From positions 186,001 to 250,000 of the forward strand of contig JAKOVD010000144.1 in NCBI GenBank assembly GCA_029782215.1: a stretch of DNA of 64,000 nt. The letters run 5' to 3'. Below, in pieces: positions 33,525 to 39,826 of this stretch. Made by a program: the position numbers and the translations under genes. The notes beneath the pieces are model-generated. The model made no database searches and had not been told where the DNA came from. It saw nothing but the letters and a program-made list of their open reading frames with translations. Source of the stretch: Chloroflexota bacterium (GTDB lineage Bacteria; Chloroflexota; Anaerolineae; J102). Within the stretch, counting starts at the first letter, position 1. Each line of letters starts with the position of its first letter.

Positions 33525-33604
33525 GGCGGATTACAGAAAATTCACCAAGCAACTCCGGCTGTGTTCATGCCAAATTCATCTTGCCGTGCTAATGTCATCA
33601 CAAT

Positions 33605-33672
33605 GGCAGGAGCAGCCAGGGAACAGAGGTGGCCGACACCGAGGGGAGACTGGTCCCGAAGCTGCTCCTGCC
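33605..33672 (+). ncRNA. Candidate structured leader RNA (perfect 12-bp P1)
   Basis: GGCAGGAGCAGC (33605-33616) pairs perfectly with GCTGCTCCTGCC (33661-33672). The 44 nt inside hold two small hairpins, GGTG/CACC (33628-33640) and GGGA/TCCC (33644-33657). An additional GGGA (33619-33622) can compete for the second TCCC. This is a three-way-junction layout like an aptamer. I could not match it to a known riboswitch class. Confidence 0.5.
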
Positions 33673-33695
33673 TTCTTCGAAACCCTCCCTGATCC

Positions 33696-33726
33696 GGCCG
33701 CCGCTCCTCACGGCGGCCTTGTTGTT
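33696..33726 (+). terminator. Intrinsic terminator in the leader of the secreted GH-like gene
   Basis: GGCCGCCG (33696-33703) and CGGCGGCC (33711-33718) form an 8-bp GC stem with a 7-nt loop, followed by TTGTTGTT. It lies between the candidate aptamer and the ATG at 33783. It could therefore be a regulated attenuator or simply the end of the acyltransferase transcript. Confidence 0.65.
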
Positions 33727-33782
33727 AGATGAGAGAGTGCAGGCGCTGCTCCTTCTCAGCCTTCGAACTCCTGGAGTCCTTC

Positions 33783-36700
33783 ATGCGCAGATTCCCAGCA
33801 GCAGTCCTCGTCATGCTCGTTGTCGGTGTTCTTGCCAACAGCGTGTTTGCCGCTGCCAGTCCGCTGGCCCTGGCTGAATCCCGGCCTGCGGCGAACGTCA
33901 CGCCGGCTGCGGTCGCGCCTGTCCAACGGCCTGCGGCCCAGGCCCCTGCCGAACCGGCGCGCGTCATGGGCCTGGGCCCCGGTTTCTTCATCGAGAACAG
34001 CGTCAGCGGCGTGCCCATCCCCCCGGCCAGCCATTCCGGCACGGGCTCTTTTCGCTTCTGGGACTGGAATACGCTCAACCCCGGCAGCGGCGTCTACAAC
34101 TTCGCCATCCTGGACAATTGGATTCAGCTTCAGCTCGGCGCCGGTTACCAGTACGTGGGCATCGCCATCAATACGTATGCCGGTCGCGCCTTCACCCGGA
34201 GCAGCTGCAGCGCCCAGAGCGTACGCCTGGGAGTTAGTTTGACGCCGGAGTGGGTGCTTAACGGTCCGGACGGGCAGGGCGGCACCGTCGACGACCCGGT
34301 CATCATCTCCAACCAGAAGTTCGTCTGGGACTGCAACAAGGATGGCACGGACGAGACCTATAACTGGCCCCTCCTGAACTATCAGAACGCCTACTACCGC
34401 GACCAGTACCGCACGTTTGTCAATGCCCTGGCCGACCACCTGCGCACAGGACCGTACGCTGACAAGGTCGCCTGGGTCGCCGCCGGGACGGGCAAGGACG
34501 GCGAAAACAAGCCCATGGATGATGAGGACGACAGCTCGTCGGGCATGAGTTCGTCGCAGTGGGTGAACGTCGTCAAGGGCATCCTCACCGATTACAGGAA
34601 CGCCTTCTTGAGCAGCAACGGCACGCCGGCAATCCGGGTGCTGACGCAGAATGCGCCCTTCTTCCTGCAGATTTCCGAGCGCCGGGATGTGGCGAAGTGG
34701 GCCTCAGACAACGGCATTGGCGTCGCCATCAACAACATCACCTCCGATTTCGACTTTGTAGAGTCGTGCAACAGCACCGATCCCAACTACAAATGCGCGG
34801 GCATCTATGACCAGGCCCGGCAGTACAGTGACAAGGTGCCCGTGGCGCTGGAAAGCTACGGCTACATGATGGCGACCCCCAACGAGTTCTACTGGTCGAT
34901 GGCGCGGGCGATGGACGTGCATGCCGACTTCATCCGCCTGTCCAACTTCTGGACCACGCAGGATACTGCCGACAACCGCACCATCGCCGAGTGGACCGAC
35001 AAATACATGGGCGTCGGCCTCCAGGCCGGTGACGTGACGCCGCCCAGCATCTGGTCACGCATGCGCGAGCATCGCGACCCCTGCTTCCTGTCCTACACGG
35101 GCGCCAGCGGCATTAGCTGCAACTGGTGGCCCACCAACGGCAACTACGAGTACTACCTGAAACAGGTCCACACGGCGCCGGGCGGCGTCACGATTCCCTT
35201 TACGGACGACGAGCGCTACAACGTCTCCGGCCGCAAGTTTGGCTGGGACAACTACGACTCCAACGTGCTCGGCAAGCCCTATCACTACAACACCAAACCC
35301 TATGACCCGGTTCTGCGCAGCGCCGGCCTGTACAGCGTTGGCGCCAGCAATGTGCAGATCGGGGTGGACCCTGGCTGGACGGCCCGGCGCAGCGATCAGG
35401 CCACAGGCAATTACGGTTTCTTCTTTGATGCCGACGACCGCTACCTCTCGCCGCCCACGGGCGATCCCCACCAGGTGGCCATCGCCGTGACCTACCTGGA
35501 CCAAGGGACGGACCGGTGGCGGCTGCGCTACGATTCCATGACCGGCGAAAAGTCCGCCCGTGTCTACGCCATCCAGGACTGGACGATCCCCATTGGCCTG
35601 GCCATCAATCCCAAGCTGCCCACAGCCGGTCTGCAGCCCGCCAATACCCTGTACATCCAGAAGACCAATACGAACACCTGGAAGACGGCCACCTTCCTGA
35701 TCGAAGACGGCTATTTCGGCAACCGGCTGCCGGGAGGCACGGACTTCTATCTCGACAGCCGCAGCGACACGGGCGCCAGCGATGGCAACGAGTACATCCA
35801 TCACGTGGACGTACGCAAGCTCAACAATGCGCCTCAAATCACTCCCACCCCCACGTCGACGCCGGCCGGAGCGACGCCCGGCCCCACCGCCACGCCCACG
35901 CCGACACCCACCGCCACCCCCAGCAGCACCAAGGGCAGCATTTCCGGGTACGTGTTCGAGGACGTCAACCTGAACGGCAATAAGGAGGGCTACGAACCTT
36001 CGCTTCCCGGTGTGCTCGTCGAGCTGGCCCCTGCCAACAATCCGGGCAATGTCATTCGCCAGGCGGTGACCGACAACAACGGCTTCTACCGCTTCACGGA
36101 CTTGTCGCCCGCGATCTACTTTCTAAACATCACGCTTCCTGCCGGCTGGGAAAAGCTGCTCGTCAGCCGCTATGCGCAGGTGGTGGTCGGCCAGGAGAAT
36201 CAGAACAATAACTTCCCAGTCAAACGCGTCGCCACGCCCACGCCCACAGCGACCCCGACATCCACCCCCACGCCGACGGCGACGACCACGCCCACGGCCA
36301 CTCCAACCGCCACACCCACGCCCACAAGCACCCCCACCGGCGGCCGCATCGAAGGCATCGTCTGGCACGACAGCGACCGCAGCGGCACTCTTGACGCCGG
36401 GGAGGTGAAGCTGCAGGGCGTCACGGTGCGGCTGCAAAACGCCAAGGGCGATGTGTTGGCCGAGAAGCAGACCGATGCCGACGGCAGATACGGCTTCCTG
36501 GGGCTGGCGCCGCTGACCTATCATGTGGTCATCGTGCTGGCGACAGGCTGGGAGTCCACGACGGCCGCAGACGCCTGGCTGGCGCCCGGCGCGGGCGTGC
36601 TGACCGTCGATTTCGGCGTCATTCCGGGACCGACACCGACGCCCACGGCCACCTCCGCGCCCAGCGGCAACCTCCATGCCCTGGTCTGGAACGATGCCAA

Positions 36701-36998
36701 CAGGGATGGGGTGAAGGATGAGGCCGAGCCGCCGCTGACAGGCGCCACCGTCATCGTCTACACCTGGCCCGGCATGCAGGAAGTAGCGCGAACGACTACC
36801 GGGGGGGATGGAATGGCGCGCTTCCTGGCCCTCCCTGCACCCACCACCTATAAGGTGGTTGAGCAGGACCTCGCCGGCATGAGCTCCAGCACGACGAACG
36901 AGGTCCTCCTGGTGCTCACCGCCGGAGCCACGTTTGACGTCGCCTTCGGTGACTATGAGGTTCTCGAGCATGTCTATGTGCCTCTGATCCGGAGGTAG
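33783..36998 (+). CDS. Large secreted multidomain protein: GH-like barrel plus three SdrD/prealbumin-like repeats
   Basis: 1071 aa. The signal peptide RRFPAAVLVMLVVGVLANSVFA precedes a large region (about residues 60-420) resembling a beta-galactosidase-type TIM-barrel hydrolase (GSFRFWDWNTLNPGSGVYNF, WVAAGTGKDGENKP). A beta-rich domain follows to about 690. Three SdrD-B/CNA-B-like repeats come next (YVFEDVNLNGNKEGYEPSLP, VWHDSDRSGTLDAGEVKLQG, VWNDANRDGVKDEAEPPLTG), each preceded by Thr-Pro-rich linkers. The last residues are VYVPLIRR, resembling the tail of the next gene. The ATG at 33783 has GGAG 8 nt upstream. Catalytic residues could not be assigned, so the enzyme activity is tentative. 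Confidence 0.7.
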   Translation: MRRFPAAVLVMLVVGVLANSVFAAASPLALAESRPAANVTPAAVAPVQRPAAQAPAEPARVMGLGPGFFIENSVSGVPIPPASHSGTGSFRFWDWNTLNPGSGVYNFAILDNWIQLQLGAGYQYVGIAINTYAGRAFTRSSCSAQSVRLGVSLTPEWVLNGPDGQGGTVDDPVIISNQKFVWDCNKDGTDETYNWPLLNYQNAYYRDQYRTFVNALADHLRTGPYADKVAWVAAGTGKDGENKPMDDEDDSSSGMSSSQWVNVVKGILTDYRNAFLSSNGTPAIRVLTQNAPFFLQISERRDVAKWASDNGIGVAINNITSDFDFVESCNSTDPNYKCAGIYDQARQYSDKVPVALESYGYMMATPNEFYWSMARAMDVHADFIRLSNFWTTQDTADNRTIAEWTDKYMGVGLQAGDVTPPSIWSRMREHRDPCFLSYTGASGISCNWWPTNGNYEYYLKQVHTAPGGVTIPFTDDERYNVSGRKFGWDNYDSNVLGKPYHYNTKPYDPVLRSAGLYSVGASNVQIGVDPGWTARRSDQATGNYGFFFDADDRYLSPPTGDPHQVAIAVTYLDQGTDRWRLRYDSMTGEKSARVYAIQDWTIPIGLAINPKLPTAGLQPANTLYIQKTNTNTWKTATFLIEDGYFGNRLPGGTDFYLDSRSDTGASDGNEYIHHVDVRKLNNAPQITPTPTSTPAGATPGPTATPTPTPTATPSSTKGSISGYVFEDVNLNGNKEGYEPSLPGVLVELAPANNPGNVIRQAVTDNNGFYRFTDLSPAIYFLNITLPAGWEKLLVSRYAQVVVGQENQNNNFPVKRVATPTPTATPTSTPTPTATTTPTATPTATPTPTSTPTGGRIEGIVWHDSDRSGTLDAGEVKLQGVTVRLQNAKGDVLAEKQTDADGRYGFLGLAPLTYHVVIVLATGWESTTAADAWLAPGAGVLTVDFGVIPGPTPTPTATSAPSGNLHALVWNDANRDGVKDEAEPPLTGATVIVYTWPGMQEVARTTTGGDGMARFLALPAPTTYKVVEQDLAGMSSSTTNEVLLVLTAGATFDVAFGDYEVLEHVYVPLIRR
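35836..35933 (+). repeat. Thr-Pro codon repeats (first linker)
   Basis: Degenerate ACGCCCAC-type repeat coding for a Thr-Pro-rich linker in the secreted protein. Similar tracts occur at 36232-36345 and 36630-36655 in the same gene and at 39362-39475 in the next one. Confidence 0.7.
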
Positions 36999-37137: not shown

Positions 37138-37167
37138 TTGTTTCCCAGTTCTACGCCTGCGTATAAT
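37138..37167 (+). promoter_or_regulatory. Promoter for the secreted hydrolase gene
   Basis: -35 TTGTTT (37138-37143), 18-bp spacer, perfect -10 TATAAT (37162-37167). The start near 37174 leaves about 28 nt before the ATG at 37202. Confidence 0.7.
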
Positions 37168-37201
37168 GTTGAGTCTGATACCCCACTTGCCACCCCCTTT
37201 T

Positions 37202-39826
37202 ATGTCAACGGCGTCTCGCCAGCGCTTGCACCGCCTTCGCCCCCTTCTCATCAGCCTGTCAACAGTCACCTTTCTCCTCGCCGGTGTGGCCCTGTTCACC
37301 GCGCCCGGCGCCTGGGCAAGGGCGAAGGTGATCGAGGTCCGTTCCAACATCGATGAGTCCTGCCACTATGTCGATGGCTACACCTCTCAGGAGATCGACA
37401 TCGTGGTGCCCTACACCGGCACCGTAACGAGCGCCAGGCTCCTGATGCGCTCCACCAACGTCCTGAACAACCTGCACCCCATCCAGGTGAACGGTGTGGA
37501 CATCGGGCAGACCCCGCCCACCGACGGCTACACAGGCTGCAGTACGAACCCCGCCATTCCCATTTACGAGTACACCGTGCCGCCCGAGCTGCTGAGGCCC
37601 GGCGTCAACACCATTCGCCTGACCTCAGAAAATACCTCTGACGGTTGGGGCACCAACTACCTGGAACTTCGGATCACAGGTGAGAACATCACGGGAAGCT
37701 CTTTCGAGGCCATCCAGTTTTCAGGGGATGGCGGGGATAGAGTGCCGGCAGTCGTGCTGGCGCCGCTGGACCAGAGCGCACCCCGCCCCCTGCTCCTGCT
37801 CTTTCACGGCTGGAACGGGACGCCGATGGAGGTGTACGAAACAGACTACACCCAGGCGGCCGTCCAACGTGGCTGGCTCGTGGCAGCCCCGGTGCAGCGC
37901 GGTCAGGACACCCTCGGCCCGGCCGGGGCGCCGTTGGCTTCACTGCGCAGCCAGCACGACGCCATTGACCTGGTGGACTACATGCGCAGCCACTACCCCA
38001 TCGACCCCAATCGCATCTACGTGGGCGGCTTCAGCATGGGCGGCATGATGGCGGGCACGATGGCCGCCAAGTATCCTGATGTCTTTGCCGCCGCCGTCAC
38101 GCACAAGGCCATCACCGACCTGGGCGATTGGTACAACGAAAGCAGTTCGTTCCGCCAGTCACGCATCGTGACGGAGACCGGCGGCACCCCCAACCAGAAG
38201 TCTTTTGAGTACCAGCGCCGCAGCCCAATCACGTTTGCCTCCAATTTCGAGAACCTGCCGCTGGCCATCATCCACGGCACGACGGACACCACGGTGCCGC
38301 CGCACCATGCCGAGGACCTCTATGACGCCATTTTGCCTGCGGCAGGGCGAAGGCTCGATCTGCACTGGTATGCGGGCAACCATGGCGATGATCCGGCGCC
38401 CTATGGGGGCGAATGGGCGGCTGCATTCATGCAGGTTTATACACGGCTGGACAACCCGGCGCACCTGCACGTGCGCACGGACGAGGCCAAGGCCTTCTAC
38501 TGGCTGACCCTGGGCAAGCGCAGCACCGGGACTTTCACCGAGGCCGCTGCCGGCGTCGATGCACCCGCTGACAGGTTCACCGTCACCATCACCGATACAC
38601 AACAGCCTGTTGACCTGGGCTTCGACCTCAAACGCATGGGGTTGGATCCGCAGGCCAGCTACGTCATCTCGCAGACGACCAGCACGCATGGCACCATCCT
38701 ATTACCGGTGCTGCCCCTGGCCGGCAGTATTGTATGGACCGTGCCCGCCGGGGTCACGCACCTCACCATCAGTCCCAACACCGGCGATCTGCCCGTGCAG
38801 CTTGAGCTGCAGGACGGGCGCAATGGCTACGCAGGCGCCGCCGACACCTGGTTGAACGCCTGGGTTCCTGCCTCCAATTACGGCAACGCCAATGTCCTGA
38901 GTCTGCGCACCGATGGTGTGGCCAAAGGGCTGCTGCGTTTTGACCTTGCGGGCCTGTTGCCTGGCAATGCCGAGATCCTGGCGGCCAATCTCAAGCTCTA
39001 TGCCGATGCGACCGGCCCGGCGATGACGGTTGGCGTGCATGCCATGCTGCGGTCGTGGAGCGAGGCGACTGCCACCTATAACCAGGCGGCTGCGGGTCAG
39101 GCCTGGGCCCAGGCCGGGGGCAAGCCGGGGCAGGATTGGGCCGCAACGCCCTCCGCCACGCTGACCTTGCCCAACGGGGCGGGGGTGGTCACCGCCAACG
39201 TGGCCAGCCTGGCGCGGAGCTGGGTGCAGGATCCCGACACCAACTACGGCCTGGTGCTGCTGCCCACCAACGCCCAATATAACGGCGCCCGGACGTTGCA
39301 CACCAGCGAGCACGTTGATCCCACATCGCGCCCTTTGCTTGAAATCATCTTCCAGGTTCCGTCCCCCACGCCGACGCCCACGGCCACCCCCACCCCCACG
39401 CCCACCCTCACCCCCACCGCAACGCCCACCGCAACGCCCACGGCCACGCCGACGCCCACCGCCACCCCGGCTGCGGGGGCCATCGACGGCCTTGTCTACG
39501 AGGACAGCAACGGCGATGACGTTTTCCAGCCCGGCGAGCCCACCCTGGCGGGCGCTGTGGTGGACCTCTGGCAGGGACAAGACCTGCTTTTCTCGCAGAC
39601 GACGGCCGAGGACGGCAAGTTCGAGTTTGCCAGCCTGCCAGCGCACAGTTACGTCGTCAGGGAGAAAGCGCCGCCGGGCTACGGCGTGGCCAGTCCGGTG
39701 GATGCGCTGACGGTGGGAGTCAGCGCCGGCCAGCAATCTTATGTCGAGTTCGGCCATCAGCCGCTGCCGACCGCCACCCCCACGGTGGAGCCAGTGCCAC
39801 TCTATCTACCTTTGCTGCGGCGCTAA
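37202..39826 (+). CDS. Secreted alpha/beta-hydrolase with DNRLRE/CBM-like and SdrD-like domains
   Basis: 874 aa. A signal peptide (LLISLSTVTFLLAGVALF, cleaved near GAWA) leads a beta-sandwich of about 130 residues. An alpha/beta-hydrolase follows with LLLLFHGWNGTPMEVYE (oxyanion HG) and YVGGFSMGGMMAG (GxSxG nucleophile Ser), and probable catalytic His in YAGNHGDDPAPY. It resembles PHB-depolymerase/feruloyl-esterase-type proteins. A DNRLRE-type domain comes next (TWLNAWVPASNYGNANVLSL, SEHVDPTSRPLLEI), then a Thr-Pro linker, one SdrD-like repeat (YEDSNGDDVFQPGEPTLAG) and the tail LYLPLLRR. The ATG at 37202 was chosen over a non-ATG-proximal 37166 start because it follows the promoter. Confidence 0.82.
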   Translation: MSTASRQRLHRLRPLLISLSTVTFLLAGVALFTAPGAWARAKVIEVRSNIDESCHYVDGYTSQEIDIVVPYTGTVTSARLLMRSTNVLNNLHPIQVNGVDIGQTPPTDGYTGCSTNPAIPIYEYTVPPELLRPGVNTIRLTSENTSDGWGTNYLELRITGENITGSSFEAIQFSGDGGDRVPAVVLAPLDQSAPRPLLLLFHGWNGTPMEVYETDYTQAAVQRGWLVAAPVQRGQDTLGPAGAPLASLRSQHDAIDLVDYMRSHYPIDPNRIYVGGFSMGGMMAGTMAAKYPDVFAAAVTHKAITDLGDWYNESSSFRQSRIVTETGGTPNQKSFEYQRRSPITFASNFENLPLAIIHGTTDTTVPPHHAEDLYDAILPAAGRRLDLHWYAGNHGDDPAPYGGEWAAAFMQVYTRLDNPAHLHVRTDEAKAFYWLTLGKRSTGTFTEAAAGVDAPADRFTVTITDTQQPVDLGFDLKRMGLDPQASYVISQTTSTHGTILLPVLPLAGSIVWTVPAGVTHLTISPNTGDLPVQLELQDGRNGYAGAADTWLNAWVPASNYGNANVLSLRTDGVAKGLLRFDLAGLLPGNAEILAANLKLYADATGPAMTVGVHAMLRSWSEATATYNQAAAGQAWAQAGGKPGQDWAATPSATLTLPNGAGVVTANVASLARSWVQDPDTNYGLVLLPTNAQYNGARTLHTSEHVDPTSRPLLEIIFQVPSPTPTPTATPTPTPTLTPTATPTATPTATPTPTATPAAGAIDGLVYEDSNGDDVFQPGEPTLAGAVVDLWQGQDLLFSQTTAEDGKFEFASLPAHSYVVREKAPPGYGVASPVDALTVGVSAGQQSYVEFGHQPLPTATPTVEPVPLYLPLLRR

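Follow-up and report, generated by a model that had tools for sequence, protein, structure and literature searches.

A conserved structured RNA outside the Rfam families precedes one secreted-protein gene in a single order of Chloroflexota

The window analysed here is a 64,000-nt stretch of contig JAKOVD010000144.1 from a Chloroflexota bacterium. On its + strand, a structured RNA of roughly 70 nt lies between a putative promoter and the gene for a secreted protein of 1071 amino acids. The features of this locus are as follows.

33541 to 33580, + strand: promoter boxes TTCACC (33541-33546), TTCATG (33564-33569) and TTCATC (33575-33580), putative OmpR/PhoB-type direct repeats; position and sequence conserved in relatives
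33587 to 33595, + strand: extended -10 element TGCTAATGT; TGnTAnnnT conserved in relatives
33605 to 33672, + strand: structured leader RNA, whole motif (covariance models R2 and R1)
33605 to 33616, + strand: P1 5' strand, pairing with 33661-33672; covariation at 9 of 11 modelled pairs
33619 to 33626, + strand: P2 5' strand, pairing with 33650-33657; covariation at 4 of 9 modelled pairs
33628 to 33640, + strand: P3 hairpin GGTG-GCCGA-CACC; stem invariant in 17 copies
33642 to 33649, + strand: invariant core AGGGGAGA, between P3 and the 3' strand of P2; identical in 17 of 17 copies
33650 to 33657, + strand: P2 3' strand (covariation analysis)
33661 to 33672, + strand: P1 3' strand (covariation analysis)
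33696 to 33726, + strand: intrinsic-terminator-like hairpin with TTGTTGTT tail (folding and terminator scan); counterpart in about half of the relatives
33773 to 33776, + strand: weak ribosome-binding site GGAG (ribosome-binding-site comparison)
33783 to 36998, + strand: secreted glycoside-hydrolase-like protein with SdrD_B repeats, 1071 aa (Pfam; predicted fold and Foldseek)
37166 to 39826, + strand: following gene, a secreted esterase/peptidase-like protein with one SdrD_B repeat (Pfam); conserved in most relatives whose contig extends far enough

The original prediction had described an aptamer-like RNA upstream of a secreted 1071-aa protein, and this description holds: the RNA is conserved and covarying, and the product is secreted and contains SdrD_B repeats. 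The N-terminal part of the protein, of roughly 650 residues, is modelled well (pLDDT 82), and for the predicted fold Foldseek returned structures of beta-galactosidase and beta-amylase (best E 3e-9), with low TM-scores of 0.3-0.45. It is likely that this predicted part forms a glycoside-hydrolase-like barrel. The upstream neighbour gene varies and is common to only a few relatives.

P1 is a perfect 12-bp stem, as had been claimed: GGCAGGAGCAGC occupies 33605-33616, and 33661-33672 matches its reverse complement exactly. Inside it, two small side-by-side hairpins and a GGGA segment able to switch partners had been proposed. Comparison of relatives gives another arrangement, in which P2 encloses P3 and AGGGGAGA. 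GGGA (33619-33622) forms the 5' side of P2, and folding revealed no other partner for it that is conserved. P2 has a single A-G mismatch in the window, and the strands of the P3 stem are GGTG at 33628-33631 and CACC at 33637-33640. The segment from 33600 to 33680 folds at -40.3 kcal/mol, compared with a mean of -28.2 for shuffled sequences (z -3.9), and none of 200 shuffles was as stable. With model R2 the window copy scores 69.4 bits (E 9e-13). Model R1, built from five relatives with the window copy excluded, gives it 54.8 bits (E 7.8e-9), and on this score the window copy is beyond chance.

In the alignment of 17 sequences, which was fitted to the covariance model, 96.8% of cells are standard pairs and 13 of the 24 pairs have changes on both sides. 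There are 57 double-change cells, against 17.6 in shuffles (0 of 500 as high) and 5 to 10 in slid controls. RNAalifold, given 13 copies aligned by MAFFT without fitting to the model, found nine pairs with compensatory double changes; a 15-sequence MAFFT alignment was dropped because two long-loop copies were misaligned. When 778 variable column pairs were ranked by a background-corrected G statistic, predicted base pairs took all of the top eight places. Double changes occur in 9 of 11 pairs of P1 and 4 of 9 pairs of P2. The P3 stem (GGUG/CACC) is without any variation in the 17 copies, and since P3 and the core are invariant, covariation is no test of their pairing. The pairing of P3 rests on thermodynamics and on the extended loops of G018 and G019, where a further hairpin is present. 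The length of this loop differs among species, and its sequence, GCCGA in the window, is variable in relatives, starting with GCC or ACC.

The sense reading of the window copy scores 69.4 bits and the antisense reading 26.4 bits, and in all copies sense outscores antisense. Together with the G-U pairs, these higher sense-strand scores indicate that the conserved entity is an RNA of the + strand. The leader RNA structure is real and conserved, with P1, P2 and the strand established by computation. A lack of covariation and of homologous leaders had been named beforehand as grounds for abandoning the prediction; instead, the covariation is strong and homologous leaders are present in 17 genomes. 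A leader peptide, starting at ATG 33603 of the window and in frame through the RNA, was rejected as a reading, as the frame is lost in relatives and, by inspection, the compensatory changes follow the helices.

The RNA had not been matched to the c-di-GMP, c-di-AMP, TPP, cobalamin, SAM or fluoride classes, and no Rfam family matches it. At the gathering threshold, Rfam 15 (4227 models) identified only a tRNA elsewhere in the window, the best hit of a permissive scan of the region was a microRNA model (E 0.17, 19 bits), and scanning of 16 relatives gave no match at the motif. The leader RNA is therefore in no Rfam family and is previously uncatalogued. Among published work, 104 candidate structured RNAs have been described (PMC2864571), and the orphan riboswitch candidates there are like the leader RNA in having a short leader, covarying stems, invariant loop nucleotides and one downstream gene family. 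The Chloroflexi entries found in the table of that paper, Chloroflexi-1 and pan, both have Rfam numbers and neither matches the leader RNA.

BLASTN with the leader gave one match in its own genome, with no further copies. In relatives it matched sequence that precedes the orthologous gene, the main matches having 70-77% identity. With the covariance model made from five relatives and lacking the window copy, 17 of the 20 genomes analysed from the window's order each gave exactly one copy; the genomes analysed from the family are the same 20, so that the two ranks are equivalent in this comparison. All nine near-complete, clean genomes of the order have a copy. The three without one (G009, G012 and G014) are incomplete genomes, and in at least one of these, G012, the ortholog of the downstream gene is cut by the contig end. 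The orthologous gene is directly downstream in 16 of 16 checkable copies; for the 17th, in G015, the contig ends 293 nt after the RNA. The ortholog match in G004 (L038) has one in-frame TAA; in this MAG the gene may be disrupted or split, or its sequence may contain an error.

No convincing further copy was found by covariance search of 396 genomes of the class or 400 genomes of the phylum, nor any copy in the viral contigs searched. Two class-level matches in G246 were rejected as unrelated palindromic repeats without the core. This repeat (GCGAGGGCGCAGCCCGAAGCAATC and its complement; L080:1501-1564 and L081:1499-1568) is present at least twice and can be mistaken for P1 by a covariance search. 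When 84,980 species genomes were scanned by pattern, 14 true copies emerged, every one of them from a MAG with the label Chloroflexi/Chloroflexota, Caldilineae, Caldilineales or Anaerolineae. Pattern matches in Clostridia and Gemmatimonadales (L108, L109) score 17-23 bits, against 55-84 for true copies, and were set aside as chance. On these searches, the leader RNA is limited to a single small order of Chloroflexota.

Ahead of the RNA, the leaders have in common TTCAC...TTCAT-N6-TTCAT(C), which varies slightly, followed by TGnTAnnnT. An 11-bp repeat directly before the -10, with no clear -35, is the arrangement of OmpR/PhoB-type activators. From the promoter spacing, transcription is predicted to start at about 33602, a few nucleotides before P1. 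Because the conserved promoter places the predicted start just before P1, the mRNA most likely begins with this RNA. The conserved, covarying, aptamer-like domain would thus occupy a 5' leader, a position that is taken from the promoter and its spacing.

The window's genome has three occurrences of TTCATN6TTCATC in all: before the leader RNA, before a response-regulator gene and before the gene for a PepSY protein. On contig C33 of G000, a two-component system (OmpR-type regulator and HAMP kinase) and a PepSY protein are encoded together (L099:774-1463 and L098:899-2915), with the box preceding both the regulator gene and the PepSY gene. This box-bearing response regulator was rejected as the conserved controller of the promoter, since it is not conserved in the family. 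TTCAT-repeat promoters with TGCTAnnnT are also found before a flavoprotein gene like succinate dehydrogenase/fumarate reductase (L144, in G011) and before a radical-SAM-like gene (L121, in G006), hinting at a possible wider regulon.

Paralogs of the 1071-aa protein have similar promoter boxes and no leader RNA. A GGAGG site is present in 10 of 13 paralogs compared with none of 16 RNA-bearing genes, and the ribosome-binding sites of the RNA-bearing genes are weaker (median -3.4 against -10.2 kcal/mol), a descriptive contrast in which independence is overstated by the related sequences and for which start codons were set by eye. The paralogous secreted proteins at L053-L062 share about 45-50% identity; most of their genes have similar promoter boxes and strong GGAGG sites, and other hairpins seem to occur in some of the leaders.

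The GC-rich terminator with a U-rich tail that had been placed about 25 nt beyond the RNA is present as a hairpin of 8 bp, all G-C, at 33696-33718, 23 nt after P1 and followed by TTGTTGTT. The start codon, expected about 60 nt further on, is at 33783, 64 nt beyond the hairpin. In a terminator scan of the whole window, 33696-33726 is among few good candidates. A terminator follows the RNA in seven or eight of the 17 genomes (G000, G001, G002, G003, G007, G017, G018 and possibly G019), and none is visible near the remaining leaders. In five of the six scan-detected terminators close behind the RNA, the loops are complementary to GGGGAG over 5-6 bases; among other terminators the share with such loops is about a fifth (19 of 80 when those close behind are included). 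Pairing between the terminator loop and the core is unproven, since the copies are related and the numbers small.

Like transcription-attenuating metabolite riboswitches, the window has an aptamer-like RNA, then a terminator, then a start codon, and the original prediction had read this layout as such a riboswitch. Of that reading, the conserved aptamer-like leader stands but the switching does not. In all seven terminator-bearing leaders folded, the best structure holds P1-P2-P3 and the terminator together, and blocking the 3' strand of the terminator costs 6 to 15 kcal/mol. Constrained folding of these leaders, with the RNA or the terminator blocked, revealed no conserved alternative pairing or antiterminator, and a mutually exclusive terminator and antiterminator were not found with or without constraints. 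Antiterminator pairing was therefore rejected for these leaders. No expression platform common to all leaders was found, and unlike in these riboswitches the terminator is present in only about half of the relatives.

In the dfn/LoaP system of Bacillus velezensis, processive antitermination acts on genes for antibiotic synthesis, the leader hairpin and the terminator are separate elements, and LoaP binds a UNCG-type hairpin (PMC12691694). The present leaders are partly similar in that the RNA is followed by a separate terminator in seven or eight of 17 cases and most genomes encode a second NusG-type protein. They differ in that the RNA has no UNCG-type hairpin, as the P3 loop sequences show, the terminator is not conserved, and the gene encodes a surface protein. 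Two NusG-domain proteins are present in 14 of the 20 genomes, and the presence of the paralog does not track the terminator. RfaH/LoaP-like factors often sit among nucleotide-sugar/polysaccharide genes. The second NusG-domain gene of G000 (C158:99700-99975, L182) and that of G007 (C180:66725-67000, L184) sit in nucleotide-sugar/polysaccharide-like clusters, the genes of which were recognised by eye.

The best explanation, with a probability of about two in three, is that this is an uncatalogued cis-acting leader RNA of one Chloroflexota order, the core of which is recognised by a partner and which sets how much mRNA is made or translated. The OmpR/PhoB-type TTCAT-repeat promoter would give rise to an mRNA with the leader RNA as its first ~70 nt. 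P1 and P2 would be the scaffold presenting the invariant core (GGUGRCC...CACC and AGGGGAGA), and recognition of this core by a specific small molecule or protein would set the amount of mRNA made or translated. Read-through would most likely be affected where a terminator follows, in seven or eight of the 17 genomes; in leaders without one, the RNA would act on translation or mRNA stability. We infer the transcription start, the action in cis and the existence of a binding partner.

For the nature of this partner, a riboswitch and protein-recruited antitermination are about equally plausible. In the former, which is a tentative reading, the core would fold around a metabolite and alter terminator read-through, or translation where there is no terminator. 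The invariant core within covarying stems, the leader position and the terminator before the start codon in the window are consistent with this, but the seven leaders lack a pairing mutually exclusive with the terminator, the terminator is not conserved, and a single target gene family offers no pathway hint to a ligand. Protein recruitment, likewise somewhat doubtful, would mean that RNA polymerase acquires a factor from the RNA, for instance the second NusG-type protein, and then reads through the terminator. The separate coexistence of RNA and terminator, as in dfn/LoaP (PMC12691694), argues for it, and the second NusG-domain protein in 14 of 20 genomes is circumstantial evidence; against it are the relatives with the RNA and no visible terminator, the missing UNCG hairpin, and a NusG paralog that is encoded elsewhere, in a nucleotide-sugar cluster where examined, and is not linked to terminator presence.

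It is unlikely that promoter, RNA and terminator form an independent unit producing a trans-acting small RNA, with the protein gene receiving only read-through. Such a unit would suit the conserved promoter directly before the RNA, the terminator that follows in about half of the genomes, and the P1 of G015, which itself ends in a run of T. Against this reading stand the constant association with one gene, which is directly downstream in every checkable case while the upstream neighbour varies, and the leaders of G004 and G006, where only 45-58 nt separate the RNA from the start codon, without a terminator or evident second promoter. The association with a single gene family may reflect a cis leader or a small RNA sharing the locus, which it does not tell apart for certain. 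A structural 5' cap that merely stabilises the long mRNA of an abundant surface protein is quite improbable: a very stable stem is indeed predicted a few nucleotides from the transcript start, but the invariant unpaired AGGGGAGA and GGUGRCC, and the absence of the RNA from paralogs with similar promoter boxes, would be left unexplained.

Within the preferred reading of a cis-acting leader with a recognised core, a more specific proposal is possible though far from assured: a new ligand- or protein-sensing leader class, in which the GGUGRCC/AGGGGAGA core would control a secreted surface enzyme by way of read-through at a separate terminator, with no antiterminator pairing. The leader RNA is a well-supported orphan family new to Rfam, tied to a single surface-enzyme gene in a little-studied order. 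The 17 aligned copies, with their conserved core, variable P3 loop and covarying stems, provide a ready model for biochemical testing. Ligand binding would make the leader RNA a new riboswitch class, and recruitment of a protein would make it a new antitermination or translation-control leader.
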